A DNA stretch of 35,638 nucleotides, taken from NCBI GenBank assembly GCA_012515535.1, contig JAAYYF010000151.1, positions 1 to 35,638 on the forward strand. The letters run 5' to 3'. Positions 2,402-25,519 of this stretch are shown piece by piece (the first letter of the stretch is position 1; each line of letters begins with the position of its first letter). The notes under the pieces were generated by a model. The model saw nothing but the letters and a program-made list of their open reading frames with translations, had not been told where the DNA came from and did no database searches. This DNA is from Deinococcales bacterium. GTDB lineage: Bacteria > Deinococcota > Deinococci > Deinococcales > Trueperaceae. The translations under genes and the position numbers were made by a program.

Positions 2402-3565
2402 TCATGACCCCCTGTTGGACGGATGCCAGCCCGTGAGCAGGCGCTCCAGCAACGAGACGACGGCGTAGATGCCCATCGAGATCAGGCTCGAGACGAGGAT
2501 GGCGGCGAACACCACGTCGAAGGCGCCGCGGTGGGCCGAGAGGCTGATGCGCTGCCCCAGGCCGTTGGGCGGGCCGGGGATGAGGAACTCGGCGACGATC
2601 ACGCTCACCACCCCCACCACCACCGCCACCTTCAGCGCCGTGAACAGGTACGGCAGGGCGTTGGGGAGGCGCAGGCGGAAGAACGCCTGCAGCGGGCTGG
2701 CGGCGTAGGAGCGCAGCAGCTCGAGCTTCAGCGGCTCGACGTTGGTGAGTCCCTGCACGGTGTTCAGCACCACCGGGAAGAACGCCACGATGACCACCAC
2801 CGCCGCCTTCGACTGCCAGTCGACGCCCAGCGCGCGCCCCAGCACCGGCGCCAGCCCCACGATGGGCACGGCGCCGAAGGCGGTGGCCAGCGGCAGGAAG
2901 CCGCGCTGCAGGAACGGCGTGAACGCCACGGCGGTGCCCACCAGGAAGCCGAACAGCAGCCCCACGCCCAGGCCGAACGCCACCTCGCGCACGAAGGTCA
3001 GGTAGGCGTCGGCCATCAGCACCGACCACGACGACACCAGCGCGGCGCCGATGTCGGAGACGCGCGGGAAGATCCCCTTGGGCACGCGGCTGCCCACCAC
3101 CAGCCCCTCCCAGGCGAGCAGCAGCAGGAACGCCACCGCCGCGGCCGGCAGCGCGCGCTGCAGGCGGTGCTGCCAGGCGGGGTCGTGGCCCTGCAGGTCG
3201 ATCACGCTCACGCGCGCGGTGGCCGCCACGGCCGCCAGCAGCGCGCCGCCCAGCACCGCCCAGTAGCCCCAGCCCGCGACGCTGGGCAGGGCGCGCTGCG
3301 CCAGCAGCGCCAGGAACGCCGCCGCCAGCGCGAACGGCGTGGCGGCCGGCACCACCCAGGCGCCGCCGTGCAGCGCCGGCAGCAGCGCCAGCGCCAGCAG
3401 CGCCGCCAGCGGCGCGGCCAAGGCGCCCGTGAGCCCCTCGCCGCCGGCGCCGAACGGGCCCAGCAGGCCCGCCAGCGCCACCAGCGCGGGCAGCGCCGCG
3501 GGCCAGAACGGTCGCAGCCGCAGCAGCCCCGGCCGCGCCGGGGCGCGCTCCTGGGCGCCGATCAT
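2402..3565 (-). CDS. ABC transporter permease 2, SsuC/TauC-like core with extra N-terminal helices
   Basis: Inner-membrane subunit of 387 residues. The core from about residue 138 to the end resembles the usual 250-residue SsuC/TauC/ThiX-type permease. It has about six helices and a cytoplasmic EAA-type loop (NVEPLKLELLRSYAASP, 275-291) that should contact the ATPase. Residues 1-137 are an added block with about four hydrophobic helices (about 20-37, 47-64, 72-90, 98-116) that the family normally lacks. The ATG start overlaps the stop of permease 1 as ATGA (3562-3565), so translation is probably coupled. The same frame stays open far upstream, antisense-like, through permease 1, but the ATGA overlap and the loss of membrane-protein character upstream place the start here. 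Its EAA loop closely matches that of permease 1 (SYAASP in both), so the two probably form a heterodimer. Confidence 0.88.
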   Translation of the reverse strand: MIGAQERAPARPGLLRLRPFWPAALPALVALAGLLGPFGAGGEGLTGALAAPLAALLALALLPALHGGAWVVPAATPFALAAAFLALLAQRALPSVAGWGYWAVLGGALLAAVAATARVSVIDLQGHDPAWQHRLQRALPAAAVAFLLLLAWEGLVVGSRVPKGIFPRVSDIGAALVSSWSVLMADAYLTFVREVAFGLGVGLLFGFLVGTAVAFTPFLQRGFLPLATAFGAVPIVGLAPVLGRALGVDWQSKAAVVVIVAFFPVVLNTVQGLTNVEPLKLELLRSYAASPLQAFFRLRLPNALPYLFTALKVAVVVGVVSVIVAEFLIPGPPNGLGQRISLSAHRGAFDVVFAAILVSSLISMGIYAVVSLLERLLTGWHPSNRGS

Positions 3566-5514
3566 CGCCGCTCCCAGGGGGCGATCAGGCGCTGCGCCAG
3601 CCCCACCAGCGCCACCAGCCCGATGCCCAGCGCCGCCGAGATCAGCAGCAGGATCCACACGTCGGCCACGTTGCCGGCCTGCACCTGGCCCACGATGGCG
3701 TAGCCGAGGCCGAAGCGGTTGTTCGACTCCGTCTCGGCCACCAGCGCCCCCACCAGCGCCGCGGCGGCGCCGAGCTTGAGGCTGGTGAAGAAGAACGGCA
3801 CCGCCGCCGGGAAGCGCACCTTCCAGAACACCTCCACCGGGGAGGCGGCGTAGCTCTTCATCAGGTCGAGGGCCAGCGGGTCGACGGAGCGCAGGCCCGT
3901 GACCGTGCCCACCGTGACCGGGAAGAAGGCGATGTAGGCGCCGATCAGCGTGGCGGGCACCAGGCTGGCCTGCACCGTCACGCCCACGTTGCCGAGCAGG
4001 AGCAGCAGCACCGGCACCAGCGCGATGATCGGCACCGTCTGCGAGGCGATCACCCACGGCAGCAGCGCGCGCTCGGCGGGCCGCACGGCCACGAACACCA
4101 CCGCCAGCAGCACCCCCAGCAGCGCCCCCACCGCCAGCGCCAGCAGCGTGCCGCCCGCCGTGTACAGCGTGGCGCGCACCACGTTGCGCGCGTCGGCGAG
4201 CGGGTAGGCGGTGAGGAACGGCCCCAGGCGCTGCGCGATCCAGTGCGGGAACGGCATGGGGTGCTGCGGCATGCTCAGGAAGCAGTCGAGCGCGGTGGCG
4301 CCGCAGGCGGGCCGGTCGTAGTAGGTGTACGATGCCGCCCACAGGCGCTGTCCCGGCTGCGGCGCCACCGCCAGCGTCACCACGCCCGCGGCGGGGTCGC
4401 TGACCAGGTAGTCGGGGTACTGGCGCAGCTGCGCGTTGCGCGTCGGGGGGCGCGCGAACGTCACCTGCGCGCCATCGCGCTCGTAGTCGACGCCCTCGAC
4501 CGCCTCGCGCCCGTCGACCGTGACCACGCCGCGCGCGCCCGCGAAGGTGAAGGTGCGGGTGGCGCCGTCGACGCGCTCGCGCGGGCGCTCGGCGGCCGAG
4601 GAGAGCTCGCGGTCGTCGAGCATCAGGCGCCGCGCGGGGTCGTTCTCCACCAGCGGCACGTGCTGCAGCTCGAAGGTGCGGTTGACGCCGTCGACGGCGC
4701 CCACCAGCAGCTCCGCGAGCGCCAGGCCGCTGGCGGCGCGGGGCGGGACGGGGCTGGGCTGCGCCAACGCCACCGTGCCGCTGGCGGCGTCGACCACGGC
4801 GTAGTCGGCGGTGAGGCGCCGCACCGGGGCGTTGAAGGGCGGCGGGGCGGCCAGCGTCACGCGCTGGCCGTCGGCCTCGAAGCCCGCCCCCTCGAGCACC
4901 AGCCGCTCGCCTACCAGCACCGGCCCCTCGCCGAGCGGGAAGGTGAAGGCGACGGTCACGCCGTCGGCGCGCTCGGCGGCGTCGACGACGCCCGCCTCCA
5001 GCAGCCGGCCGCCCAGGTAGAGCGGCCGGCCCGCCTCGGCGGGGTCGGCGAAGCGGAACAGGTGGCCGGCGGCGCCCGGCGCCAGCCCCTCGTCGAGCGG
5101 CCCCGCGAGCTCCGCGCCCCAGGTCAAGAGCGGGCCCGCCACCGCGCCCTCCAGCACCAGCTCGCCGCCGTCGAAGCCGAAGGGGGCCGCGAGCGGCGCC
5201 CCGTCCTTCACGAGCACCAGGCGCTCGGGGGCGCCGGCGGCCGCCTCCAGCTCGGCGGCGCCGCCGAACGTCAGCCGGGCGCCGGGCGCGGCGCCGGCCG
5301 CGGGGTCGTCGGGCACCGCCGCCAGCGGGTGGGCGGCGGTGGTGGTCACGAGCCAGTTGGCGAGGTTCTCCATGCGCTTGCGTGCCAGCGGCAGGCCGAG
5401 CCACAGCGCCACCGGGTACATGAGCGCCACCCCCAGCGCCAGCACCGTGAGCACGGGCAGCGCGCGCCCGAGGCGCGCCCGCGCCCCGCCGGCGTCGGCG
5501 GCGCCCAGCGCCAC
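3562..5514 (-). CDS. ABC transporter permease 1 with about 400-residue beta-repeat insertion
   Basis: A 650-residue membrane subunit, more than twice the usual size of the SsuC/TauC family. Helix 1 is at about 17-38. The normal permease core resumes at about 441 (DARNVVRATLYTAGG) and includes an EAA-type loop at 543-580 (SVDPLALDLMKSYAASP). Between them lie roughly 400 residues with no helix-length hydrophobic stretch. This region has repeated beta-type modules: DGVTVAFTF (184-192), VDGVNRTFEL (274-283) and VDGATRTFTF (315-324). The last leads into VTVDGREAVEGVDYERDGAQ (331-350) and VTFARPP (351-357). By analogy with the family, helix 1 runs outward, so the insertion should be extracytoplasmic. 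C404 and C411 lie at its end. GTG start, one base after the ATPase stop; overlaps permease 2 by four bases. The permease assignment is firm; the role of the insertion is unknown. Confidence 0.85.
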   Translation of the reverse strand: MALGAADAGGARARLGRALPVLTVLALGVALMYPVALWLGLPLARKRMENLANWLVTTTAAHPLAAVPDDPAAGAAPGARLTFGGAAELEAAAGAPERLVLVKDGAPLAAPFGFDGGELVLEGAVAGPLLTWGAELAGPLDEGLAPGAAGHLFRFADPAEAGRPLYLGGRLLEAGVVDAAERADGVTVAFTFPLGEGPVLVGERLVLEGAGFEADGQRVTLAAPPPFNAPVRRLTADYAVVDAASGTVALAQPSPVPPRAASGLALAELLVGAVDGVNRTFELQHVPLVENDPARRLMLDDRELSSAAERPRERVDGATRTFTFAGARGVVTVDGREAVEGVDYERDGAQVTFARPPTRNAQLRQYPDYLVSDPAAGVVTLAVAPQPGQRLWAASYTYYDRPACGATALDCFLSMPQHPMPFPHWIAQRLGPFLTAYPLADARNVVRATLYTAGGTLLALAVGALLGVLLAVVFVAVRPAERALLPWVIASQTVPIIALVPVLLLLLGNVGVTVQASLVPATLIGAYIAFFPVTVGTVTGLRSVDPLALDLMKSYAASPVEVFWKVRFPAAVPFFFTSLKLGAAAALVGALVAETESNNRFGLGYAIVGQVQAGNVADVWILLLISAALGIGLVALVGLAQRLIAPWERR

Positions 5515-5515
5515 C

Positions 5516-6352
5516 TCAGTACCCGGCCTTCGCCAACCGCGGCTCGGCGGGCGGGCCGGCGGCGGCCTGCGGCCCCAGCTGGCCCACGCGCAGCGCCTCG
5601 CGCACGCGGGTGGTGAGCTCGAAGAAGCGCTCCGACTCGCGCGTCTCGGCGTCGCGCGGGTAAGGCAGGTCGACGTCGATCACCTCGCGGATGCGCCCGG
5701 GGCGCGCCGTCATCACCACCACCTGCGAGCTCAGGAACACCGCCTCGGCGATCGAGTGGGTCACGAACACCACCGTCTTGCGCGTCTCCTGCCAGATGCG
5801 CAGCAGCTCGAGGTTCATGGCCTCGCGCGTGATCTCGTCGAGGGCGCCGAACGGCTCGTCCATCAGCAGGATCTTGGGGTCGATGGCCAGCGCCCGCGCG
5901 ATCGACACGCGCTGCTGCATGCCGCCCGACAGCTGCCAGGGGTAGGAGCGGTGGAACGACTCGAGGCCCACCATGGCCAGCAGGCGCTCGGCGCGCGCCC
6001 GCCGCTCGGCGCGCGGCACGCCCATGATCTCGAGGGGCAGCATCACGTTGGCCAGCACGCTGCGCCACTCGTAGAGCGCCGGCGCCTGGAACACGTAGCC
6101 GTACTCGCGCGCCTCGCGCGCCTCGCGCGGGGCGCGGCCGGCCACGCGGATGCGCCCCTCGGTGGGCTCGATGAGGTCGGCGATGAGGCGCATCAGCGTC
6201 GTCTTGCCGCAGCCCGAGGGCCCGATGAGGCTGACGAACTGCCCGCCCTGGATGGTGAGGTCGGCGTCCTGCAGCGCCACCGCCTCGGCCTTGCCGACGA
6301 CGAAGCGCTTGCTGACGCCCGCCACCTCGATCATCGCGGGGCTCTCGCTCAT
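5516..6352 (-). CDS. ABC transporter ATP-binding protein, nitrate/sulfonate/pyrimidine type
   Basis: Cytoplasmic ATPase subunit (278 residues) that powers the two adjacent permeases. All motifs are intact: Walker A GPSGCGKTT (44-52), Q-loop Q89 (YVFQAPAL), signature LSGGM (141-145), Walker B ILLMDEP (161-167), D-loop ALD (170-172) and switch His199 (FVTHS). The sequence resembles SsuB/TauB/ThiZ proteins. About 30 residues at the C terminus (after VGQLGPQ) are Ala/Pro-rich and look disordered. It starts four bases after the dihydropyrimidinase stop and ends one base before the GTG of permease 1, so it is part of the same message. M7 is a possible alternative start. Confidence 0.92.
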   Translation of the reverse strand: MSESPAMIEVAGVSKRFVVGKAEAVALQDADLTIQGGQFVSLIGPSGCGKTTLMRLIADLIEPTEGRIRVAGRAPREAREAREYGYVFQAPALYEWRSVLANVMLPLEIMGVPRAERRARAERLLAMVGLESFHRSYPWQLSGGMQQRVSIARALAIDPKILLMDEPFGALDEITREAMNLELLRIWQETRKTVVFVTHSIAEAVFLSSQVVVMTARPGRIREVIDVDLPYPRDAETRESERFFELTTRVREALRVGQLGPQAAAGPPAEPRLAKAGY

Positions 6353-6356
6353 CGGG

Positions 6357-7769
6357 TCAACCAGCCACCGCTTCGCGCGCGCCCTCGTGGGCGCTGGCCG
6401 GCTCGCGGCGCAGCAGGCGGCCGCGCCCGGGGTCGCCGACGAACTCGCCGTCCCGCACGGCCACCTGGCCGCGCACCGTGACGACGCTGGGGCGCCCGTC
6501 GATCTCGACGCCCTCGAAGCCCGAGTAGTCGACGTTCATGGCCTGCGTCTCGGCGCTGATGGCGCCGCGGTAGTGGGGGTCGTAGACCACGATGTCGGCG
6601 TCGGCGCCCACCGCGATCACGCCCTTCCGCGGGTAGAGGCCGAACAGCTGCGCGGCGCGCGTGCTGGCGGCGCTCACGAAGCGCTCGAGGCTCAGGCGTC
6701 CGCGGCTCACCCCGTAGGTGTAGAGCAGGTTCACGCGGTCCTCGATGGTGGGGATGCCGTTGGGGATCTTGGTGAAGTCGCCGCGCCCCATCTCCTTCTG
6801 GCCCTTGAAGTCGAAGGGCGCGTGGTCGGTGGCCACCGTGTCGATGACGCCGGCGGCCAGCGCGTTCCACAGCGGCGCCTGGTTGCGCCTGTCGCGCAGC
6901 GGCGGCGACATCACGTACTTGGCGCCCTCGAAGCCGGGGCGCTCGGCGTAGCTCTTGTCCAGCAGCAGGTGCGGCACCACCACCTCGATGGCGAGGTCGA
7001 CGCCGCGCCGCTTGGCCGCCAGCGCCGCCTCCAGCGCCGGCTCGCAGCTCAGGTGCACCACGTAACCCTTGGCGCCGGTGAGCTCCACGAAGGTGGCGAA
7101 GTGCGCGGTGCCGTCGGCCTCGACGCGCTCGGGGCGCGAGGGCTCGTGCCACTCGGGGCCGCCCTTGCCCTCGGCCAGCAGGCGCTGCTGCAGCTGCGCC
7201 ACCAGCTCGTCGTTCTCGCAGTGCGCCGCCACCGTCACGCCGAGCTCCTTGGCGAGCGTGAGGGTGCGGAACAGCTCGGCGTCGGTGACGCCGAAGAAGC
7301 CCTTGTAGGCCAGGAACACCTTGAACGACGTCATGCCCTCGGCCACCAGCTCGCGCAGCACCGCCTCGGTCTGGTCGTCGTAGCGCGTGACGCCGATGTG
7401 GAAGCTGTAGTCGCAGGCGCTGTTGCCCTCGGCCAACGCCGTCCAGTTGCGGTAGCCGGCCATCAGGTCCTCGTTGCGCGAGGGCGCCATCATCTCGATG
7501 TAGGTGGTGGTGCCGCCCACCAGCGCCGCCTGGCTGCCGGTGGTGTGGGTGTCCTTGGTGAAGGTGCCCATGAACGGCAGGTGGATGTGCACGTGCGGGT
7601 CGATGAAGCCGGGGAAGACGTACTTGCCCGTGGCGTCGATGACCTCGGTGCCGGGCGGCGCCTCCAGGTCCTTGCCGATGCGGGAGATGGTCTCCCCCTC
7701 CACGTAGACGTCGGCCACCATGCGGCTGCCGGCGTTGACGATCTCGCCGTTCCTGATGAGCAGGCTCAC
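6357..7769 (-). CDS. hydA: Dihydropyrimidinase (D-hydantoinase family)
   Basis: Zinc amidohydrolase that opens 5,6-dihydrouracil or dihydrothymine to N-carbamoyl-beta-alanine or its methyl homologue, in the cytoplasm. The 470 residues carry the full metal site: H59/H61 (DPHVH), carboxylated Lys K150 (TSFKVFLAY), H183, H239 and D315 (ATDHAPF). Y155, S288 in MSPPLRD and N337 in the IPNGIP motif are substrate-contact residues typical of dihydropyrimidinases. The ring-reducing enzymes PreA and PreT lie just upstream, which favours dihydropyrimidinase over allantoinase or a general hydantoinase. GTG start with AGGAG at 7774-7778, four bases upstream. It follows preA after 33 bases and precedes the ABC ATPase by four. 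The gene is often named hydA, dht or pydB. Confidence 0.93.
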   Translation of the reverse strand: MSLLIRNGEIVNAGSRMVADVYVEGETISRIGKDLEAPPGTEVIDATGKYVFPGFIDPHVHIHLPFMGTFTKDTHTTGSQAALVGGTTTYIEMMAPSRNEDLMAGYRNWTALAEGNSACDYSFHIGVTRYDDQTEAVLRELVAEGMTSFKVFLAYKGFFGVTDAELFRTLTLAKELGVTVAAHCENDELVAQLQQRLLAEGKGGPEWHEPSRPERVEADGTAHFATFVELTGAKGYVVHLSCEPALEAALAAKRRGVDLAIEVVVPHLLLDKSYAERPGFEGAKYVMSPPLRDRRNQAPLWNALAAGVIDTVATDHAPFDFKGQKEMGRGDFTKIPNGIPTIEDRVNLLYTYGVSRGRLSLERFVSAASTRAAQLFGLYPRKGVIAVGADADIVVYDPHYRGAISAETQAMNVDYSGFEGVEIDGRPSVVTVRGQVAVRDGEFVGDPGRGRLLRREPASAHEGAREAVAG

Positions 7770-7802: not shown

Positions 7803-9158
7803 TCAGTGGATCTCGATGCCGACTTCCTCGCGGTACGCCACCATGGCGTCCCAGTCGGTGGTGACCTCGGGGCGGGTGCGCACCAGTTCGTTCCAGGTGA
7901 CGGGCGGGATCTTGGGCGGCCGCTCGACCATGGTGATGCAGCCGTCGACGGGGCAGACGAGGCTGCACAGGTCGCAGCCCACGCAGTCGTCCTCGCGCAC
8001 CACGGGCTGCAGCGTCGTGCCGCCCTCGTAGGTGTCGGGGTCGATGCGCAGGCCGTCGGCGGTGAGGTCGATGCACTGGTGGGCGCCCTCGTCGCAGGCC
8101 ACGTAGCAGAGGTTGCACTGGATGCACTTGCTCTCGTCGATGGTGGCGACGGTGCGGAACGACAGGTCGAAGTCGCCGAAGACGCTGATGCGCTCGACCG
8201 AGGCGCCCACCACCTCCTCGGCCTGCCGGGCGCCCTTCTCGTCGAGCCAGTTCGACAGGCCGGTGGTGAGCTCGTGGACGATGCGGAAGCCGTAGTGCAT
8301 CACGGCGGTGCAGACCTGGATGGAGGTGGCGCCCAGCAGCATGAACTCGGCGGCGTCGCGCCAGGTCTCGACCCCGCCCATGCCCGAGATGGGCACCGGC
8401 CGCGCCTGGTAGGTGGGGTCGGAGGTGATCTGCGACAGCAGGTGCAGCGCGATCGGCCGCACCGCTGGGCCGGCGTAGCCGCCGTGGCTGCCCTTGCCGC
8501 CCACGTTGGGGCGGATCTCGAAGCTGTCGAGGTCGACGCCGGCGATCGAGTTGATGGTGTTGATGAGCGAGATGCCGTCGGCGCCGGCGTTCAGCGCGGC
8601 GTGGGCGGGCGGGATGATGTTGGTGACGTTGGGCGTGAGCTTGACGATCACCGGGATGGAGGCGGCGCTGGTGACCCAGCCCGTGATCATCTCGCAGTAC
8701 TCGGGCACCTGGCCCACGGCGGCGCCCATGCCGCGCTCGCTCATGCCGTGGGGGCAGCCGTAGTTGAGCTCGATGGCGTCGGCGCCGGTGTCCTCGATCT
8801 GCTGCACCACGGTCTTCCACGCCTGCTCGTTGCTGCTGACCATGGCGCTGACGATCACGGCGCGGTCGGGCCATAGGCGCTTGACCTCTCTGATCTCCTT
8901 GAGGTTCACCTCGATGGGCCGGTCCGAGATGAGCTCGACGTTGTTGATGGCCACGAGGCGCTTGCCGCCGTACTCGAAGGCGCCGTAGCGGTTGCAGACG
9001 TTGAGCACCGGGTCGCCGATGGTCTTCCACACGGCCCCGCCCCAGCCGTACTCGAACGCCTTGTTGATCTGGTACGCCGAGTTGGTGGGCGGCGCCGAGG
9101 CGAGCCAGAACGGGTTCGGGCTGCGGACGCCCGCGAAGTTCGTGGTCAGGTCAGCCAT
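7803..9158 (-). CDS. preA: NAD-dependent dihydropyrimidine dehydrogenase, subunit PreA
   Basis: Catalytic FMN subunit that reduces uracil/thymine to the 5,6-dihydro forms with electrons from PreT. Residues 1-330 form a dihydroorotate-dehydrogenase-like barrel, with the active-site segment NYGCPHGMSERGMGAAVGQ at 132-150. The C-terminal part holds two [4Fe-4S] ferredoxin motifs: C345, C348, C351, C355 and C392, C395, C398, C402. In mammalian enzyme, as I recall it, the catalytic Cys lies in the loop that here reads AAVGQ with Val148. Escherichia coli PreA, also from memory, has Val there too, so this may be a bacterial trait rather than a defect. The length (451) is slightly above E. coli PreA. 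The ATG overlaps the preT stop by eight bases and has AGGAG at 9164-9168, so PreA and PreT are translated together as partners. Confidence 0.94.
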   Translation of the reverse strand: MADLTTNFAGVRSPNPFWLASAPPTNSAYQINKAFEYGWGGAVWKTIGDPVLNVCNRYGAFEYGGKRLVAINNVELISDRPIEVNLKEIREVKRLWPDRAVIVSAMVSSNEQAWKTVVQQIEDTGADAIELNYGCPHGMSERGMGAAVGQVPEYCEMITGWVTSAASIPVIVKLTPNVTNIIPPAHAALNAGADGISLINTINSIAGVDLDSFEIRPNVGGKGSHGGYAGPAVRPIALHLLSQITSDPTYQARPVPISGMGGVETWRDAAEFMLLGATSIQVCTAVMHYGFRIVHELTTGLSNWLDEKGARQAEEVVGASVERISVFGDFDLSFRTVATIDESKCIQCNLCYVACDEGAHQCIDLTADGLRIDPDTYEGGTTLQPVVREDDCVGCDLCSLVCPVDGCITMVERPPKIPPVTWNELVRTRPEVTTDWDAMVAYREEVGIEIH

Positions 9159-10587
9159 GGACGCTCCTGAAGTCGTTCGTGGTGCCGTGCATGTACCTCC
9201 CCCGCGTGGCGCTAGGGTCGCGCCTCAGCTCCTCCACGCCGAGCTGGCGGGCGATGGCGCGCGCCGCGATCTTGCCGTCCTCGGCGGCGGTGACCGTGAG
9301 GGCGTGGCCGGTGAGGCGCACGCAGTCGCCGGCCGCGAACACCTTGGGGTGGCTGGTGCGGAGCTCCTCGTCGACCTTCACGTAGCCACCGATCGACTCG
9401 ATGCCGAAGGCCGCGAACAGCGCGGTGAGCTTCTCCTGCCCGATGGCCTTGATGACCTGGTCGGCGGGCAGCACGAGCTCGCTGCCCGGCACGGGCTCGG
9501 GGCGGCGGCGGCCGCTGGCGTCGGGCTCGCCCAGGCGCATGCGCACGCAGCGCACGCCGGTCACGCGGCCGTGCTCGTCGCCGAGGATCTCTACGGGCTG
9601 GGTGAGGAGGCGGATGTCGACCCCCTCGTTGCGCACGAACGCCACCTCGAAGTCGTAGGCGGTCATCTCGGCGCGGCTGCGGCGGTAGAGCATGGTGACG
9701 CGCTCGGCGCCCAGGCGCTTGGCCACCGTGGCGGCGTCGACGGCGGTGTTGCCGGCGCCCACCACGATCACCTCGTCGCCGACCGGGATCTCGCGCAGCC
9801 GCTCGACGCCGTCCTTGTCGGCGAGCTTGGTGGCGGCGATGAACGGCAGCGCGTCGATGACGCCCTCGAGCTCCTCGCCGGGCACGTTCAGGCGCGGCAC
9901 GGGGCCGGTGCCGGCGGCGAGCAGCACGGCGTCGTACCCCTCGATGAGCTCCTGCGGCGAGACGTCGACGCCGACCTCGACGCCGGTGACCACCTCGACG
10001 CCGAGGCTCTGGATGAACTCGACCTCCTCGAGCGCCACCCGCGTGGGCTCGCGCATGACGACGATGCCGTAGGTGGAGAGGCCGCCGGGCAGCTCCTGGC
10101 GCTCGAACACCGTGGCGCGCACGCCGCGCTTGGCGAGCTCGCCGGCGGCGCTGAGGCCCGCCGGGCCGGCGCCCACGATGGCCACGCGCTTGCCGCTGTC
10201 GGGGGCGGGCTCGAACACCCGCGCGCCCGTCTCGAAGACGTGGTCGGTGGCGTAGCGCTGCAGGCGCCCGATGGCGATGGGGCGGTGCTCGGCGCCCAGC
10301 ACGCAGGCGCCCACGCACAGCTCGTCGACGGGGCAGACGCGCCCGCAGCTGTGGCCGATGAGGTTCGACTCCAGGATGGTGGTGGCGGCGCCCAGCAGGT
10401 TGCCGTTGGCGATCTGCCGGATGAACGTCGGGACGTCGATGCCCGTGGGGCACGCCTGGATGCAGGGGGCGTCGAAGCAGTAGAGGCAGCGGTTCGCCTC
10501 GACGGTGGCTTCGTTGGGCGTGTAGCGCGGGTAGGTCTCGGTGAACGAGTCCTGCAGCTGCGCCAGGGTCAGCTCGTGCTCTCGCAT
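9151..10587 (-). CDS. preT: NAD-dependent dihydropyrimidine dehydrogenase, subunit PreT
   Basis: Electron-input subunit of 478 residues that takes hydride from NAD(P)H through FAD and passes electrons through Fe-S clusters to PreA. The N-terminal helical domain has two cysteine groups, C34/C37/C42/C46 and C81/C85/C91/C95, as in the small subunit of glutamate synthase and the N-terminal part of eukaryotic dihydropyrimidine dehydrogenase. The FAD dinucleotide fold starts at VAIVGAGPAGLSAAGE (135-150) and the pyridine-nucleotide fold at VIVVGAGNTAVDAA (273-286). A C-terminal FAD segment VFAAGDCVRLTGHA is also present. The partner context (preA overlapping by eight bases) separates it from GltD. 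ATG start with GGAGG at 10591-10595. It lies 149 bases after mmsA, across a GC-rich gap with hairpins. Confidence 0.93.
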   Translation of the reverse strand: MREHELTLAQLQDSFTETYPRYTPNEATVEANRCLYCFDAPCIQACPTGIDVPTFIRQIANGNLLGAATTILESNLIGHSCGRVCPVDELCVGACVLGAEHRPIAIGRLQRYATDHVFETGARVFEPAPDSGKRVAIVGAGPAGLSAAGELAKRGVRATVFERQELPGGLSTYGIVVMREPTRVALEEVEFIQSLGVEVVTGVEVGVDVSPQELIEGYDAVLLAAGTGPVPRLNVPGEELEGVIDALPFIAATKLADKDGVERLREIPVGDEVIVVGAGNTAVDAATVAKRLGAERVTMLYRRSRAEMTAYDFEVAFVRNEGVDIRLLTQPVEILGDEHGRVTGVRCVRMRLGEPDASGRRRPEPVPGSELVLPADQVIKAIGQEKLTALFAAFGIESIGGYVKVDEELRTSHPKVFAAGDCVRLTGHALTVTAAEDGKIAARAIARQLGVEELRRDPSATRGRYMHGTTNDFRSVHG

Positions 10588-10736: not shown

Positions 10737-12224
10737 TCAGAAGGTCCGGCTCCAGTTCTGTGGCCAGCGCTCCACCACCACCTTCGTCTGCGTGTAGAAC
10801 TCGATGCCGTGGGCGCCCTGCGCGTGCAGGTCGCCGAAGAAGCTCTCGGACCAGCCGCTGAAGGGGAAGAACGCCATGGGCGCCGCCACCCCCAGGTTGA
10901 TGCCGATGTTGCCGGCGATGGCGCGGTGGCGGAACTCGCGCGCCGCGGCGCCGGAGCTGGTGAACAGCGAGGCCTGGTTGCCGAAGGCGCGGTCGTTGAC
11001 CAGCTGGATGGCCTCGTCGAGGGTGCGGGCGTGCATCAGCGACAGCACCGGCCCGAACACCTCGGTGGTGGCGAGGGTGCTGCCGGGCGCCACCTCGTCG
11101 ACGATGGTGGGGTGCACGAAGTAGCCGTCGGCGAAGCCGTCGACCGCCTTCTCGCGCCCGTCGACCAGCACGCGCGCGCCCTCGGCGGCGCCGGTGTCGA
11201 CGAGCGAGCGGATGCGCTCGCGCGACTCCTTGGTGATGACCGGCCCCATCTCGACGCCCTGCTCGAGGCCGTAGCCGACCTTGCGCTGCTCGGCGGCGGC
11301 CACCATGCGCTCGGTGAACTCGACGCGGGCGTCGCCGACCGTGATGGCCACCGAGGTGGCGAGGCAGCGCTGCCCGGCGCAGCCGAACGCCGAGTCGGTG
11401 AGGATGCGCGAGGTCATCTCCATGTCGGCGTCGGGCAGCACCACGGCGGGGTTCTTGGCGCCGCCCTGGCACTGGGCGCGCTTGCCGTTGGCGGCGGCGC
11501 GCGCGTAGATGTAGCGCGCCACCGGGGTGGAGCCCACGAAGCTGATGGCCTTGACGTCGGGGTGGTCGAGGATGGCGTCGACCGTCTCCTTGCCGCCGTT
11601 CACCAGCCCCACCACGCCGGGCGGGAAGCCCGCCTGCTCGAGCAGCCGGAAGAGCAGTTGCGTGGTCATGGGCACGCGCTCGGACGGCTTGAGCAGGAAG
11701 CAGTTGCCGGTGGCCACCGCGTAGGGCAGGAACCACAGCGGGATCATGCCGGGGAAGTTGAACGGCGTGATGGCCGCCACCACCCCCAGCGGCTGGCGGA
11801 TCATGTGCTCGTCGATGCCGTGGGCGATGTCCTCGTTGTTGCTGCCCTGCATCATGTAGGGCGCGCCGCAGGCGACCTCGACGTTCTCTAGCCCACGCTG
11901 CATCTCGCCCAGCGACTCGGCGTAGGTCTTGCCCGCCTCGTTGGTGATGGTGCGCGCGAGCTCCTCGAGGTTGTCGTGGAGCAGCTGCCGCAGCTTGAAC
12001 AGCGGCTTGATGCGGTCCACCACCGGCGTCTCGCGCCACTCGCGGAAGGCCTTCACGCCCGCCTGCACGGCGGCGTCGACCTCCTCCTTGGGGCTCAGGG
12101 GCACCACGGCCAGCGTCTCGGCGGTGGCCGGGTTGCGCACCTCCTGGCGCGCCGAGGCGCGCGAGCGCTGCCACTCGCCGCCCACGTAGTTGAGCAGTTC
12201 CTGCGCCGCTGATTCGATCGTCAC
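10737..12224 (-). CDS. mmsA: CoA-acylating (methyl)malonate-semialdehyde dehydrogenase
   Basis: NAD- and CoA-dependent aldehyde dehydrogenase that converts methylmalonate semialdehyde to propionyl-CoA and malonate semialdehyde to acetyl-CoA, releasing CO2. It has 495 residues, typical for MmsA. The catalytic Cys is C287 in GCAGQRC, and N155 is in ITPFNFPG. The usual ALDH glutamate motif is replaced by QGGAKN (253-258), which is diagnostic of the CoA-acylating MMSDH subfamily. Here it most likely ends the pyrimidine pathway, taking the semialdehydes formed from beta-alanine (uracil) and beta-aminoisobutyrate (thymine); a role in valine or inositol breakdown is the alternative. GTG start with only a weak GGTGG upstream. 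First gene of the leftward operon, with a good promoter about 75 bases upstream. Confidence 0.93.
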
Positions 12225-13831: not shown

Positions 13832-13890
13832 CCGGCCAGCGAGCGCGGGCCGGCCAGCGAGCCGGCGCCGGCCTCACCCCTCGCTGGCCG
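13832..13890. repeat. Direct and inverted CGGCCAGCGAG repeats between convergent genes
   Basis: CCGGCCAGCGAGC occurs twice as a direct repeat (13832-13844 and 13850-13862). The second copy forms an 11-bp stem with its complement at 13880-13890, enclosing a CCGGCGCCGG palindrome (13862-13871). The structure spans the stop of the leftward GGDEF gene (13874) and follows the PLP-gene stop (13821). It is a likely bidirectional terminator without T-tract. Confidence 0.45.
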
Positions 13891-16800
13891 CCTCCGCGCC
13901 GGCGCCGCGCACCTGCTCGCGCAGCGCCGCGTCGGCCGCGCGCCGCGCCGCGGCCATGCGCCCGAGCAGGTCGCGCTCGGCGCTCTCGTTCTCCTCCACC
14001 CGCGCCCAGTCGCGGGCGCGCTCGAAGGCGCCCAGCGCCTCCTCGGGCCGGCCGGCGAGCAGCAGCGCCTCGCCCAGCTCGGTGGCGGCGCCGCGCGCGC
14101 CGTTGGCGTAGCCGATCCCCTCGGCGAGCTCCAGCGCGGCGCGCGCGTGCGCCATCACCGCCTCGGGCTCGAGCAGGCCGGACTCACGGCCCAGGCTGGC
14201 GAGGTTGAGGAGCGTGAGCGCCTCGCCGCTGGCGTGCTCCACGCGGCGGTAGTTGGCGGCGGCCTCCTCGAGGGCCGCGAACGCCTCCTGCGGGCGCCGC
14301 AGCATGCTCAGCACGATGGCCACGTTGCCGCGCGCCTGCGCCTCGCCGACCGCGTCGTCGAGCTGGCGCCTGAGCTCCGCGGCGGTGCCGAACGCCGCGA
14401 GCGCCGCGTCCGGCCGTCCGCCCATGCCCGCCACCACGCCGGCGGTGTTCCACGCCATGGCGGCGGTGTCGCCGGGGGTGTGGGGGGCGAGCAGCGCCAG
14501 CGCCTCGTCGATCTTGGCCGCCGCCTCCGCGTGGCGGCCACGCTGGGCGAGGAACAGCGCCACGGCGTCGGCCACCCAGCCGCGCAGCTCGGTGTCGGGC
14601 GCGTCGGCCAGCTGGCTCTCGGCGAGCTGGAACAGCTCCAGGCCCTCGCGGGCGCGGCCGCGCACGTCGAGGTAGCCGCGCAGCGCCCGCGCGAGCGGCC
14701 ACGCCAGCTCGGTGTCGCGGCGCTCCAGCGCCTCGCGCCAGGCGAAGACCAGGTTGGCGCGCTCGGCGTCGAGCAGGCGGTAGCCGCGGCTGCTGCTCTC
14801 GCTGCGCGGCATCTCGTTCACCTGGCGCGCCAGCTCGGCGTAGGTGCGCGCCACGCGCTCGCGCGCCGCGGCGGGGTCGCGCAGCCCCGCCCGGTAGCGC
14901 TCGGCGATGGCGGCGTGGACCGTGTAGCGCGCGCCCTCGCGCCGCACGAGGCTGCGCTCGAGGAGCGCCAGCAGGAAGAAGGGCGAGGCGCCGGCGGCGG
15001 CGCGGGCCGCCTCGGCGGTGAAGCCGCCCGGCACCGTGGCCAGCACCCCCAGCGCCTCCTGCTCCCAGGGGCTCATCAGCTCGCGGGTGACGTCGATGAA
15101 GCGCGCCGTGCGCGGCTGCAGCCCGGGCGCGGCCGCCAGCAGCTCGGGGTGGCGGTCGAGCTCGGCGCCGAGCTCGGCGGGGCTCAGCGCGCGCGTCCAG
15201 GCGGCGGCCAGCTCGATGGTCAGCGGCGTGGGCCCGACCTTCTCCACCAGCGCGTGCAGCTCCGCGTCGCCGGGCTCCTCCTCGGCGCCCACGCGCTCCA
15301 TGCCGTGGCGGAACAGCTCGCCGGCGGCGGCCACGCTCAGCTCGGGCACCTCGATGAGGCGCTCGTCGGCCAGCCGCAGCGGCATGCGTGAGGTGACGAG
15401 CAGCTGCAGGCCCGGCGCCGCGTCGAGCAGCGTCGCCAGCAGGCCGGCCTCGTCCACGATGCCGTCGACCTCGTCGAGCACCAGCCGCAGGCGGCGCTCG
15501 CCCAGCTGCCGGCCCAGCCCCTCGACGTCGTCGCTCGCCTCGAGCCCGAGCGCCTCCGCGATCAGCCCCGGCAGCACGGCCGCCTGGCGCACGGCGCGCA
15601 GGTCGACCCAGCGCGTGTCCTCCACCTCGTTGGCCAGCTCGAGGGCCAGCTGCGCCGCCAGGCGCGACTTGCCGATGCCGCCCGGGCCCACCAGCACCGC
15701 CAGGCGCGCGTCGCGCACGAGCGGGTTGGCGCCGGCGAGCCAGCGGCTGCGGCCCACCAGCGGTGACTCCCAGCGCGGCAGCTCCGGCGGCGCCTTGGCC
15801 TCCGCGCCCGCGCGCGCCAGCGCCCGCACGCGCTCCGGGTCGGCGCTCACCGCCTGGGGGCTGCGCGTGAGCGCCCCCTCGTCGGCCAGCCGCGCCACCA
15901 GCTCGGCGATGCGCGCCGGCAGGCCGGCGCCCGCCTCGGCCAGCGCCGCCACCGTGGCCGCGTCGGCCGGGCCGCCCAGGGCGGCCGCCAGCCAGCGCCC
16001 GGCCTCGGCGGGGCGCAGCGGCTCCAGCGCCACGTGCAGCGTCGCGGGGAACGCCGCGGTCGCGCCGTCGGGCACCGCCTCCACCAGCTTCGCGCCGCCC
16101 TTGCGCAGGCGGTCGGCCAGCAGCCGCCGCGAGCCGGGGTCGAGCCAGCGGCCCCCCTCGAGCAGCACCAGCAGCCCGTGGCCCTCGGCGTCGTAGGCGA
16201 GGCGCTCGGCCACCTCGCCCTCGGTGGGGTCGGCGGGCAGCAGCTCGCGGTACGCCTGCTCCATGGCCCGCAGGTAGACGCCGTGGTTGGGGGCGGTGGC
16301 CACGATGCTGCGCACCGCGCGCCCGGCGATGTGGCCGCGCACGCCCGCCTCGTGCAGGAAGCGCGTGAAGCCGGCGCCGGCGGGGCCCGTCAGCCGCAGC
16401 ACGCGCTCCTCGGCCGTGCCCGCGTTGGCGGCGAGGAAGGCGTCGAGCTGGGCGAGCTGCTCGTCGCGGCCCACCAGGCGCGTCTCGCGCAGCGCGCCGG
16501 GGTCGGGCTCGGGCGCCACCTCGCTGGCGACCACCATGTTGCGGCCGGCGCGCTTGGCGAGGTAGAGGCGCGCGTCGGCGCGCTCGAAGAGCTGCGCCTG
16601 GTCGGTGGGGGCGCCCGGCTCGTCGGTGGCCGCCACCCCCACGCTGACGTTCACGTTCACCCACACGCCCGCCTCGACCGGGTTGGCGATCACCTGGTCG
16701 CGCACGCGCCGCAGCACGCTCTCGGCCTCGGCGTGCCCGGTGCCGGGCAGGAGGATCAGGAACTCGTCGCCGCCGTATCGGAACAGCTTGTCGCCCGAGC

Positions 16801-17020
16801 GCAGCACGCGCGCCGCGCGCGCGGCCACGGCCTTGAGGGCGGCGTCGCCGGTGGCGTGGCCGTACACGTCGTTGAGGGTCTTGAGGTGGTCGACGTCGAG
16901 CATCGCCAGGGCGTAGTGCGCCCCGCTGCGGGCGTGCTCGCTGGCGAGCGCTCCGAGCGCGTCGGCCAGGCCCGCCCGCTGGTAGGCGCCGGTGAGGTCG
17001 TCGACGAGATGGCGCTCCAC
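13874..17020 (-). CDS. GGDEF / tandem STAND-type ATPase / TPR signalling protein
   Basis: A 1048-residue multidomain cytoplasmic protein. Residues 1-165 form a diguanylate cyclase domain with LDVDHLKTLND (41-51), active-site GGDEF (83-87) and an I-site RSGD (74-77) for c-di-GMP feedback. Two ATPase-like modules follow. The first starts at LVGRDEQL (182-189); its P-loop GPAGAGFT (212-219) lacks the Lys and its Walker B is eroded. The second starts at LVGRSRWL (421-428), with intact P-loop GPGGIGKS (445-452), Walker B LRLVLDEVD (511-519) and sensor LLVTSR (540-545), as in AfsR/MalT-like STAND regulators. From about 730 on, helical repeats look like TPRs. No DNA-binding domain and no membrane helix are visible. 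GTG start six bases after a TAGACT box, so probably leaderless. Its signal and partner are unknown. Confidence 0.85.
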   Translation of the reverse strand: MERHLVDDLTGAYQRAGLADALGALASEHARSGAHYALAMLDVDHLKTLNDVYGHATGDAALKAVAARAARVLRSGDKLFRYGGDEFLILLPGTGHAEAESVLRRVRDQVIANPVEAGVWVNVNVSVGVAATDEPGAPTDQAQLFERADARLYLAKRAGRNMVVASEVAPEPDPGALRETRLVGRDEQLAQLDAFLAANAGTAEERVLRLTGPAGAGFTRFLHEAGVRGHIAGRAVRSIVATAPNHGVYLRAMEQAYRELLPADPTEGEVAERLAYDAEGHGLLVLLEGGRWLDPGSRRLLADRLRKGGAKLVEAVPDGATAAFPATLHVALEPLRPAEAGRWLAAALGGPADAATVAALAEAGAGLPARIAELVARLADEGALTRSPQAVSADPERVRALARAGAEAKAPPELPRWESPLVGRSRWLAGANPLVRDARLAVLVGPGGIGKSRLAAQLALELANEVEDTRWVDLRAVRQAAVLPGLIAEALGLEASDDVEGLGRQLGERRLRLVLDEVDGIVDEAGLLATLLDAAPGLQLLVTSRMPLRLADERLIEVPELSVAAAGELFRHGMERVGAEEEPGDAELHALVEKVGPTPLTIELAAAWTRALSPAELGAELDRHPELLAAAPGLQPRTARFIDVTRELMSPWEQEALGVLATVPGGFTAEAARAAAGASPFFLLALLERSLVRREGARYTVHAAIAERYRAGLRDPAAARERVARTYAELARQVNEMPRSESSSRGYRLLDAERANLVFAWREALERRDTELAWPLARALRGYLDVRGRAREGLELFQLAESQLADAPDTELRGWVADAVALFLAQRGRHAEAAAKIDEALALLAPHTPGDTAAMAWNTAGVVAGMGGRPDAALAAFGTAAELRRQLDDAVGEAQARGNVAIVLSMLRRPQEAFAALEEAAANYRRVEHASGEALTLLNLASLGRESGLLEPEAVMAHARAALELAEGIGYANGARGAATELGEALLLAGRPEEALGAFERARDWARVEENESAERDLLGRMAAARRAADAALREQVRGAGAEAASEG

Positions 17021-22703: not shown

Positions 22704-25331
22704 TCATTCGTCGGCGCTGGCCGGCGGGGTGAGCAGGTTGGCGTACAGGCGGTAGGCGCCCGGCACGTTGTTCTCGATCTGCGTGTGCAGCACGAGGCTC
22801 GTGTAGGTGTAGCGCCCCTTGCCGAGGTCGGTGGTGAGCATGGAGCCGAGGAACGGCAGCTCGTCCCAGGTGTCGGGCCACTGGGCGTCGGTCACCGAGA
22901 AGAGCGGGGTGTAGTTCTCGTCCCACTCCTGCGCGAAGTAGAGGCCGCGCTCCTTGATCCAGCCGTCGAAGTCGGCGTCGGTGATCTGGTTGGGCGTGGT
23001 CATGAGCGGGTTCTCGGGCTCGAGGATCTCGACCTCGCCGTCGGCGGCGGTCACGCGCGAGAGCAGCGAGACGCGGCCGAGCTCGATCGGGAAGGGCGGC
23101 ACGGTCTCGGGGTCCCAGGCGTCGGCCGGGCGGTGGTACTGCACGAGCAGGTTGCCACCGTCGCGCACCCACTGCATCAGGCGCTCGTTGGCGGCCATCA
23201 GGTCGGGGCGCAGGCGGTAGGTGTAGATGCCCACCGCGATCGAGTCGTACTTGCTGAGGTCGCCGGTGGTGAGGTCGTCCTCGGTGAGGAGGTCGACGTT
23301 CATGCCGATCTGGCGCAGGCCCTCGTAGACGAGGTCGGAGCCGCCGGCCACGTAGCCGATGCGCAGGTTCGGGTCGAAGGCGACCTCGAGCGCCTGGACG
23401 TTGGCGCGGGCGGGCGTCACGAGGTAGGTGCGGCCCACGTGCTCGTAGTTGATGACGCGGATGTAGTCGGTGCTCTCGGCCTCGCCGTCGGCGCGGACGG
23501 TGAAGTCGTAGGAGCCCTGGGCGACGCCCTCGGCGGGCACGAGGGTGAAGGTGGCGCCGCGCGCGTCACCCTTGCGGTTGAAGCTGAGGGTGATGGCCTC
23601 GGGCTCGACGGTCCAGCCTTCGGGGGCGTCGATGGTGATGGTGGTCTCGGTGGGGCCGTCGACGTAGTTGACGGCAGCGACGCTCATCTCGAGCTCGGCC
23701 GGCTGCAGCAGGTTCAGCACGAGCTTGTCGGGCGTCACGCGCAGCGACACGTCGGGCAGCACGCCGATGATCTCGCGCGAGTCGACGGTGAACTCGAACG
23801 GCACGCCGTCGACCTCGTAGCGCACCACGCCGTAGACGTCGCCGTAGGCGCGGAACGGGTTCATGTTGCGGCGGTAGGGGTTGTAGTACGGCGCGTCCTC
23901 GGGGACGGTCACGAGGAAGGTCTGCTTGACGGTCTCGCCGTTGGTGAGCGTGGCGCCCTCGACGACGTCGCCGGTGGCCTCCACGGTCCAGCCCTCGGGC
24001 GTGACGAGGTCGAAGCTGAGGTTCTCGACGTTCACGTTGCCGCCGAGGTAGGCGCTGACGGTCACCTCGGTGCTGCCGCCGCGGGTGAGCTCGGGGTTGG
24101 CGGCGATCACGCGGGTGACGAGCGACAGGGCGCGACGGCTCGCCACCTGGAGCTCGAGCTCCTTCTGGGCGAGGCGGAAGTCGATGTCGTCGGCGGTAGC
24201 GGCGTCGACGTCGCTGGCGCCGGCGAGCGTGGCGCGCGCTTCACGCACCTTGGCCAGGGTGGTGGTCAGGTGGCCCTGCACGGCGGCGAAGTCGGGGTAG
24301 GCGGCCAGGGCGGCGTCGATGCCCGCCTGCACGTCGCGCAGCTGCGCGGCGAGGGTGGCGTTGCCGAGGCCCTCGGCCAGGTCGGCGACGGTGAACGGCA
24401 CGCCGGCGAACAGGTCGGTGTCGGTCTCGGGGGTGGTCACGTGCGAGCCGGCGAGGTGCAGGCGCGAGACGCCCGGGACCTCTTCACGCCAGCTGCCCAT
24501 GTCCTGGCTGCGGTGGTAGGCGCGCGACTGCTGGCCGAGCTGCTCGTAGGTGGCGCCGAAGAACTGGTCGAAGGCGCCGGTGTCGAGCTCGAGGGTGGCT
24601 TCGAGCTCGAAGTCGGCCTGGCCGCTGCCGCGGCCGGCGGGCAGGTAGAACTTGGCGGGCTGCCACGGCTCGAGGCCCTGCTCGAAGTGCTCGGGGAAGG
24701 CGTTGGGGTCGCCGGCGAGCTCGAAGGCGCGCTCGGTGGCGTAGGCCATGGCGCGGTGGTTGCCGTGCTGGCCGAAGACGTTCTGGAAGTTGGTGAAGAG
24801 GATGTCGGGGCGGCTCTCGCGGATGGCGCGCACGAGCTTCTCCATCATGACCTCTTCGCCCCAGATCTCGAGGGTCTCGACGGCCGACTTCGAGAAGCGG
24901 AAGTCGTAGATGGGGTCGTCGAAGCTCTCGCTGAGGAAGAACAGCTCGACCTTGAAGGCCTTGCTCGACTCCTCCATCTCGCGGCTGCGGAGCACGCCGA
25001 GGGCCTGCTGGTACTCGGTGCCGATCGAGTTCTGGCCACCCTCACCGCGGTTGGCGGTGACGGTGATGCTGCGCACGCCCATGCCGCGCGACAGCAGGGC
25101 GATCTGGCTGGAGCGCTCGTCGTCGGGGTGGGCGCCGACGGTCATGAAGCTGGCGACGGAACGCAGGGGGGTGAGCGCTTCGTACAGCTCGACGATGCCG
25201 CGCTGGCGCTCCTGCTCGACGACGCGCGCGTCGGTGCGGCTCTGCGCCGCGGACACGCCTACGAGGACGGCCAGCAGCAGCGCTACCAGCGTCCTGAAGA
25301 CCGGGGGACGACTCTTGACCTTTGCTCGCAT
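22704..25331 (-). CDS. Secreted PIG-L family deacetylase-like protein with NEW3-like and amidotransferase-like domains
   Basis: An 875-residue exported protein. Residues 1-30 are a signal peptide (MRAKVKSRPP, hydrophobic core, SAAQ). The PIG-L/LmbE domain has the zinc motif AHPDDE (67-72) and the distal histidines in QHGNH (188-192), which suggest N-acetyl-sugar deacetylase activity. A helical linker is followed by two beta domains with the APEGWTVE / TPEGWTVE signature of NEW3-type (alpha-galactosidase-associated) modules. A C-terminal Rossmann-like domain (LRIGYVAGGSD) then resembles ThuA or class-I amidotransferase folds. Similar composite proteins occur in several GC-rich and Bacteroidota genomes; the substrate is unknown. 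The frame is open to 25448, but the signal peptide and GGAGG at 25343-25347 favour ATG 25331. ATG 25349 is a weaker option. Monocistronic. Confidence 0.87.
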   Translation of the reverse strand: MRAKVKSRPPVFRTLVALLLAVLVGVSAAQSRTDARVVEQERQRGIVELYEALTPLRSVASFMTVGAHPDDERSSQIALLSRGMGVRSITVTANRGEGGQNSIGTEYQQALGVLRSREMEESSKAFKVELFFLSESFDDPIYDFRFSKSAVETLEIWGEEVMMEKLVRAIRESRPDILFTNFQNVFGQHGNHRAMAYATERAFELAGDPNAFPEHFEQGLEPWQPAKFYLPAGRGSGQADFELEATLELDTGAFDQFFGATYEQLGQQSRAYHRSQDMGSWREEVPGVSRLHLAGSHVTTPETDTDLFAGVPFTVADLAEGLGNATLAAQLRDVQAGIDAALAAYPDFAAVQGHLTTTLAKVREARATLAGASDVDAATADDIDFRLAQKELELQVASRRALSLVTRVIAANPELTRGGSTEVTVSAYLGGNVNVENLSFDLVTPEGWTVEATGDVVEGATLTNGETVKQTFLVTVPEDAPYYNPYRRNMNPFRAYGDVYGVVRYEVDGVPFEFTVDSREIIGVLPDVSLRVTPDKLVLNLLQPAELEMSVAAVNYVDGPTETTITIDAPEGWTVEPEAITLSFNRKGDARGATFTLVPAEGVAQGSYDFTVRADGEAESTDYIRVINYEHVGRTYLVTPARANVQALEVAFDPNLRIGYVAGGSDLVYEGLRQIGMNVDLLTEDDLTTGDLSKYDSIAVGIYTYRLRPDLMAANERLMQWVRDGGNLLVQYHRPADAWDPETVPPFPIELGRVSLLSRVTAADGEVEILEPENPLMTTPNQITDADFDGWIKERGLYFAQEWDENYTPLFSVTDAQWPDTWDELPFLGSMLTTDLGKGRYTYTSLVLHTQIENNVPGAYRLYANLLTPPASADE

Positions 25332-25342
25332 CGAAACGTGTG

Positions 25343-25347
25343 CCTCC
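25343..25347 (-). promoter_or_regulatory. Ribosome site deciding the PIG-L gene start
   Basis: GGAGG on the minus strand, 11 bases before ATG 25331. It lies inside the codons that an earlier ATG (25349) would use, so it supports the later start, which also opens directly into the signal peptide. The spacing is longer than ideal. Confidence 0.5.
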
Positions 25348-25519
25348 ATATCGCACTTGGGTGATCCTGGGGATCGCGCCGCGCCCGGCTGCCTCCGGGC
25401 GGCTCCAGCGCGGTTCTCGAGCCGGCTCTCGTCTACCTCTGCTCTCACCTCCGTGGCCTGGTTTCTCTCGCGCCCAGCGCGGTACGGCGCGACGGCCGTC
25501 CGGCGGCGGTTCGGATGAA

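Follow-up and report, generated by a model that had tools for sequence, protein, structure and literature searches.

Why does one permease of an ABC importer in a Trueperaceae bacterium carry a 354-residue insertion outside the membrane, and what could this insertion do there? The question arises from permease 1, a 650-residue protein encoded at 3562-5514 on the minus strand of the window, the whole stretch of 35,638 nucleotides analysed here. Docking of binding proteins in type I importers usually relies on short loops, and the well-studied exception is MalF P2, a periplasmic loop (the second of MalF) that joins helices 3 and 4. In the E. coli MalFGK2-MalE transporter, P2 is a folded periplasmic insertion (residues 91-271) that contacts the binding protein (PMC3150292).

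The importer and its operon

Permease 1 lies in a minus-strand cluster that runs from a CoA-acylating methylmalonate-semialdehyde dehydrogenase (10737-12224) through the dihydropyrimidine dehydrogenase subunits (7803-10587), namely a PreT-like protein (9151-10587) and PreA (7803-9158), a dihydropyrimidinase/D-hydantoinase (6357-7769) and the importer ATPase subunit (5516-6352) to permease 1, its partner permease 2 (2402-3604) and an NMT1/THI5-type binding protein with a non-lipoprotein signal peptide (1280-2326). Since the operon encodes enzymes of pyrimidine breakdown, the substrate is probably a pyrimidine base (uracil or thymine) or a related ring compound. By hydropathy alone, permease 2 of most Trueperaceae is extended at its N-terminus by about four helices, compared with about two in other Deinococcota counterparts, so both permeases have changed in Trueperaceae.

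Elsewhere on the minus strand of the window are a 1048-residue protein (13874-17020) with an unusual combination of an N-terminal GGDEF domain, an NTPase-regulator-like middle (GPGGIGKSRL) and a C-terminal TPR region; a 914-residue ORF (22704-25448) with a PIG-L de-N-acetylase domain and an NPCBM-associated NEW3 domain; a 1357-residue ORF (27605-31678) that matched nothing in Pfam at E 1e-5 and lies downstream of a same-strand pair of a MoxR-type AAA ATPase and a DUF58 protein; and a 737-residue DUF6351 protein (33256-35469) of a tannase-like family of unknown function, near full length.

Class and topology of permease 1

The Pfam domain BPD_transp_1 (PF00528) covers residues 463-649 only (E 1.3e-17, 64.5 bits against a gathering threshold of 26.4). 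The modelled core superimposed on CmpB/NrtB in Foldseek (E 1.6e-7, TM-score 0.74-0.76 by target length, about 20-22% identity), and phmmer matched permease 1 to NrtB/CmpB at E 9.7e-9. As judged by hydropathy, charge distribution, the structural model and the operon, permease 1 has the marks of a type I importer: six helices, cytoplasmic ends, an EAA-type loop, and an ATPase and a binding protein in the same operon. The scores were under the NCBIfam equivalog cut-offs for SsuC (39.5 of 347 bits), TauC (26.8 of 342) and NrtB (31.8 of 209). On sequence grounds, permease 1 is an NrtB/SsuC-like type I permease, yet one outside SsuC, TauC or NrtB proper.

The six helices were placed by hydropathy at residues 21-39, 457-475, 496-514, 518-536, 574-592 and 621-639. 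Both termini are assigned to the cytoplasm, and the loop of residues 40-456 to the outside, by the positive charges and the EAA-type loop. Helix 1 is long (residues 8-49, hydrophobic part 21-39; 5368-5493), with its N-terminus predicted to be cytoplasmic, and helices 2-6 with the EAA-type cytoplasmic loop make up the core (residues 444-650; 3565-4185). The extracytoplasmic loop following helix 1 contains Cys404 and Cys411 (4282-4305), which, together with Pro421 and Pro423, are invariant across 23 aligned sequences of insert-bearing and insert-free Deinococcota counterparts. The two cysteines may form a disulphide conserved in this permease group, at the base of the insert.

A folded, repeat-built insert between helix 1 and the core

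The original prediction, made from the DNA alone, held that the extra length of this permease is a large insertion between helix 1 and the core, and both parts were borne out: the permease domain is confined to the C-terminal part, insert-free counterparts have stop-to-stop frames of only about 286-350 residues, and all of the additional sequence lies between helix 1 and Cys404. The predicted borders (4195-5391, residues 42-440) overlap the insert but extend into helix 1 on one side and over the conserved Cys/Pro loop on the other; we place the insert at residues 50-403 (4306-5367). A frameshift or misassembly is excluded, as had been claimed, because the frame is open in 16 other genomes too; in a 17th, it is interrupted by a contig end.

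AlphaFold2 was run on the whole of permease 1 with 22 relatives and on the insert alone. The whole protein gave a mean pLDDT of 89.9 and a pTM of 0.72, with insert blocks mostly above 90, while the isolated insert gave a pLDDT of 92.1 and a pTM of 0.84 and was predicted to consist of about 30 strands and one short helix. The confident fold excludes unfolded low-complexity filler, and the topology, read from hydropathy and charge, excludes a cytoplasmic segment; either would have spoken against the original prediction. Together with the profile comparisons below, these results support a folded, extracytoplasmic, all-beta insertion built of repeats. Within the genus, the insert is under purifying selection, with dN/dS of 0.24-0.50 compared with 0.03-0.21 in the core; the ratio is usually lower in H2 than in H1 and highest in N0, the three parts described below. 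These values are simple NG86 estimates, and dS is moderately high in some pairs.

The motif repeats noticed by eye are present as VDGVNRTF (residues 274-281), VDGATRTFTF (residues 315-324), which continues into VTVDGREAVEGVDYERDGAQVTFARPP, and the diverged ADGVTVAFTF (residues 183-192). In hhalign profile comparison, they resolve into two tandem copies, H1 (residues 147-266; 4717-5076) and H2 (residues 267-403; 4306-4716), which match each other at E 1.1e-24 with 35% identity, far beyond chance. Each copy contains an inner module of 50-60 residues, J1 in H1 (residues 178-236; 4807-4983) and J2 in H2 (residues 311-365; 4420-4584), with the common pattern ERxDGxxxxFTFxxxxGxVxVDGxxLxEGxDYxRDGxxVxFxxPPxxNAxLR; J1 and J2 match at E 2.7e-20. 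Each inner module is flanked by two pieces which, when joined together, look like the module itself. Considering that the profile support for this is moderate (82% probability and E 1.1e-5 for outer 1 versus inner 1; 45% probability and E 2.2e-4 for outer 2 versus inner 1; reversed controls, E 0.1-0.5), H1 and H2 are each likely, not certainly, one beta-module nested inside another. The N-terminal beta part N0 (residues 58-146; 5077-5343) is only loosely related to the modules (best E 2.3e-5) and evolves fastest.

The invariant or near-invariant residues of H1 are mostly structural (Tyr, Phe, Gly, Leu and Asp), and H2 adds a conserved set of R295, E309, R310, P311, E313, R314, R346, R359, N360 and R364. 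Most conserved polar residues of H2 fall in two near-invariant stretches where the chain crosses between the outer and inner modules, the outer-to-inner crossing at residues 309-317 (ERPRERVDG; 4564-4590) and the inner-to-outer crossing at residues 357-366 (PTRNAQLRQY; 4417-4446). Under the nesting model, the two crossings would lie side by side.

Likeness to known folds

Neither the whole insert nor its profile led to a known family: no solved structure matched the insert at E 0.001 or below, no PDB chain matched its profile, and no Pfam, NCBIfam or PHROG domain was above its cut-off. No Pfam match to a substrate-binding-protein domain of the OpuA or GlnPQ type was found in the insert, and the operon has its separate NMT1 binding protein. 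In the open-access literature, we found no published description of this insertion, and in this respect too the original prediction stands.

For single modules, the original prediction had pointed to a likeness to phage-tail proteins. Foldseek matched one module to the phage CBA120 tailspike TSP4 (7rej_B) over 65 columns at 3.0 Å with 23% identity, and to gp48/gp49 of phage B2 over 71 columns at 3.5 Å with a TM-score of 0.63 by target. These matches of 65-71 columns reached a probability of 0.92 with 23-24% identity, and their E-values of 0.55-0.64 are individually non-significant. In a search of the PDB with the module profile, residues 214-239 of TSP4, in the XD2 region, were among the best matches (E 0.03-0.08), with clearly unrelated HisF scoring similarly. 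The BFVD matches at E 1e-5 to 1e-3 came almost exclusively from structural proteins of phages and had low TM-scores. The module was under the cut-off for CBM_X2 (PF03442; best E 1.2e-5, 25.7 bits against 28.9) and for DUF2460 (PF09343; best E 9.1e-5, scores of 12-16 against 30.4), and a search with the module consensus returned only cyanophage structural proteins at a non-significant E of about 1. A tblastn search with the whole insert for a direct phage or plasmid origin gave no match. The likeness to phage-tail modules, to which TSP4, gp48/gp49, DUF2460 and CBM_X2 all point, may be present but is weak, each single match being below its cut-off or non-significant. The small beta-modules XD2 and XD3 of TSP4 and of T4 gp10 may resemble those of the insert, but they are trimeric and arranged in line, whereas the insert modules are monomeric by context, duplicated and apparently nested.

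Distribution and evolution of the insert

Three features that the original prediction had missed are the tandem duplication of the double module, the restriction of the insert to a single family and a short natural variant. The insert profile hit a single locus in each of 18 Trueperaceae genomes, out of 39 searched; the 72 genomes from other Deinococcota gave no hit. These 18 are all of the Trueperaceae genomes with the importer, and they include one matching T. radiovictrix RQ-24T. The binding protein was present in exactly the same 18 genomes, and PreA in these and in one incomplete genome. When one genome per GTDB species was scanned for the motif with a single peptide pattern, only records from Trueperaceae or Deinococcota MAGs were returned. 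H2 is present in all 18 genomes; in G012, where the gene is cut by a contig end, it was read from the upstream contig, and in G017, the genome that matches T. radiovictrix RQ-24T, the insert lies in a 619-residue frame. In the pair G006 and G022, with frames of 445 and 432 residues, the insert consists of H2 only, and all ten of the conserved H2 residues are kept.

In other Deinococcota families, the cluster has the same order, and the permease 1 counterparts lack the insert: the Cys loop that closes it in Trueperaceae comes almost immediately after helix 1. These syntenic counterparts, from the Deinococcus and Thermus side, are 43-47% identical to permease 1 over residues 404-649 and share its Cys pair. 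The cyanobacterial nitrate and bicarbonate permeases NrtB and CmpB, of about 280 residues, have a core that is alike and also have no insert.

In a protein tree of the transporter and the dihydropyrimidinase, the Trueperaceae formed two groups, both with support of 100 and both with long inserts. The H2-only pair falls inside the second group, where branching is poorly supported. As all H2 copies form one clade (support 100), the duplication came first and N0 and H1 were lost later in one lineage. A short insert as the ancestral state is excluded by this clade and by the nesting of the short-insert lineage within Trueperaceae. In per-gene trees, the ratio of the Trueperaceae stem to the mean crown depth was highest for the cores of permease 1 (3.4) and permease 2 (3.2), followed by the binding protein (1.9), compared with 0.8 for the ATPase, 0.56 for PreT, 0.39 for PreA and 0.20 for the dihydropyrimidinase. 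On the branch where the insert arose, the outward-facing or channel-forming parts changed and the enzymes did not. This burst is compatible with co-adaptation to the insert and also with replacement by the genes of a distant relative.

A putative docking platform and its alternatives

The reading that we favour, and to which we give about an even chance, is that the insert is an extracytoplasmic docking platform for the cognate binding protein, one of three roles that the original prediction had put forward, the others being an envelope contact and a pre-receptor. We infer the contact with the binding protein from the position, fold, duplication, range, co-occurrence and conservation of the insert and from the precedent of MalF P2; its face, the effect on transport and the substrate are likewise inferred. 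The insert would be a rigid beta-domain of tandem nested double modules, anchored by the lengthened helix 1 and the Cys404-Cys411 loop, that keeps the binding protein on or near the translocation mouth. H2 would be the working unit and N0 and H1 a dispensable extension, and the candidate contact face is the invariant Arg/Glu/Asn set of H2, mostly at the junction of the outer and inner modules. Insert and binding protein occur in the same genomes, one copy each and nowhere else in the phylum; the insert is predicted to be outside the membrane and to fold both alone and within the permease; the lineage without N0 and H1 retains H2 with its polar residues; and the stem burst includes the binding protein. 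The phage modules that single insert modules may resemble, the XD2 and XD3 beta-jellyrolls of TSP4, are described as mediating protein-protein binding (PMC8825819). On the other side, insert-free counterparts are paired, in the same operon, with a similar and likewise unlipidated binding protein, so the insert is not required for docking, and the conserved junction residues may simply hold the two modules together. The idea that the insert compensates for an unlipidated binding protein was not supported, the outgroup binding proteins being unlipidated too.

The burst, which reached both permeases, would also fit a structural brace that stabilises the pairing of permease 1 with permease 2 or forms a cap over the translocation mouth, with no specific contact to the binding protein, and the additional N-terminal helices of permease 2 in the same family agree with this. 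We consider a brace unlikely: the binding protein changed as well, and a tandem duplication followed by the loss of one copy suggests reach rather than a fixed brace. The burst could instead mean that the old operon received permease 1, with the insert already in place, along with permease 2 and the binding protein from a donor lineage that is unsampled, in which case the insert would have whatever role it had in the donor. Long stems for precisely these three genes and not the enzymes are what such a transfer predicts, but the nearest sequence relatives are still the syntenic Deinococcota genes (43-47% compared with 28-42% for other permeases) and the species-wide motif scan with its single peptide pattern found the insert in Trueperaceae only. 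We hold this to be the least probable of the explanations.

Contact with the envelope, in which the insert would tether the importer to, or hold it at a distance from, peptidoglycan, an S-layer or some other layer of the wall specific to Trueperaceae, fits the restriction to one family, the weak scores of the modules on surface and carbohydrate families such as CBM_X2, and the three-layered wall of T. radiovictrix, whose outermost layer is 20-90 nm thick (PMC3072082). That only one importer per genome bears the insert is odd for a general wall anchor, however; no wall-binding family reaches its cut-off, and one lineage shed more than half of the insert length, so that we regard this explanation as distinctly improbable. 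Still less can be said for a pre-receptor, in which the conserved arginines of the insert would capture the substrate, or an anionic ring compound, for delivery to the binding protein or the channel. The Arg/Asn set of H2 and the confinement to one importer would suit it, but a complete binding protein is kept in the operon, no ligand-binding family matched, and the modules have the look of assembly units more than of ligand pockets; we hold it to be very unlikely.

If the insert is a docking platform, it may work like MalF P2, with which it shares the design of a large folded extracytoplasmic insertion in a type I importer permease, but it differs by position and sequence. P2 has about 180 residues; the insert has 354, follows helix 1 and precedes helix 2 in a core of six helices, and, unlike P2, is made of duplicated, apparently nested modules whose sequence matches no PDB chain. 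P2 is known to contact the binding protein, whereas for the insert such contact is a proposal. A more far-reaching version, which we offer tentatively and think rather doubtful, is that a docking module of the phage-tail type was recruited into the permease, duplicated and turned into a receptor platform, to which the permeases and binding protein re-adapted in one burst. Insertion of such a module into a loop is plausible because the N- and C-terminal strands of XD2 and XD3 are adjacent (PMC8825819). If true, this recruitment would mean that a MalF-P2-like device arose a second time, independently.

Within one operon context, a single orthologous importer exists in three natural states, namely without the insert, with H2 only, and with N0, H1 and H2. 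The value of an added docking domain is therefore directly testable, including in the cultured T. radiovictrix. The locus also shows a transporter that gained a large ectodomain between helix 1 and helix 2 and retained its core.
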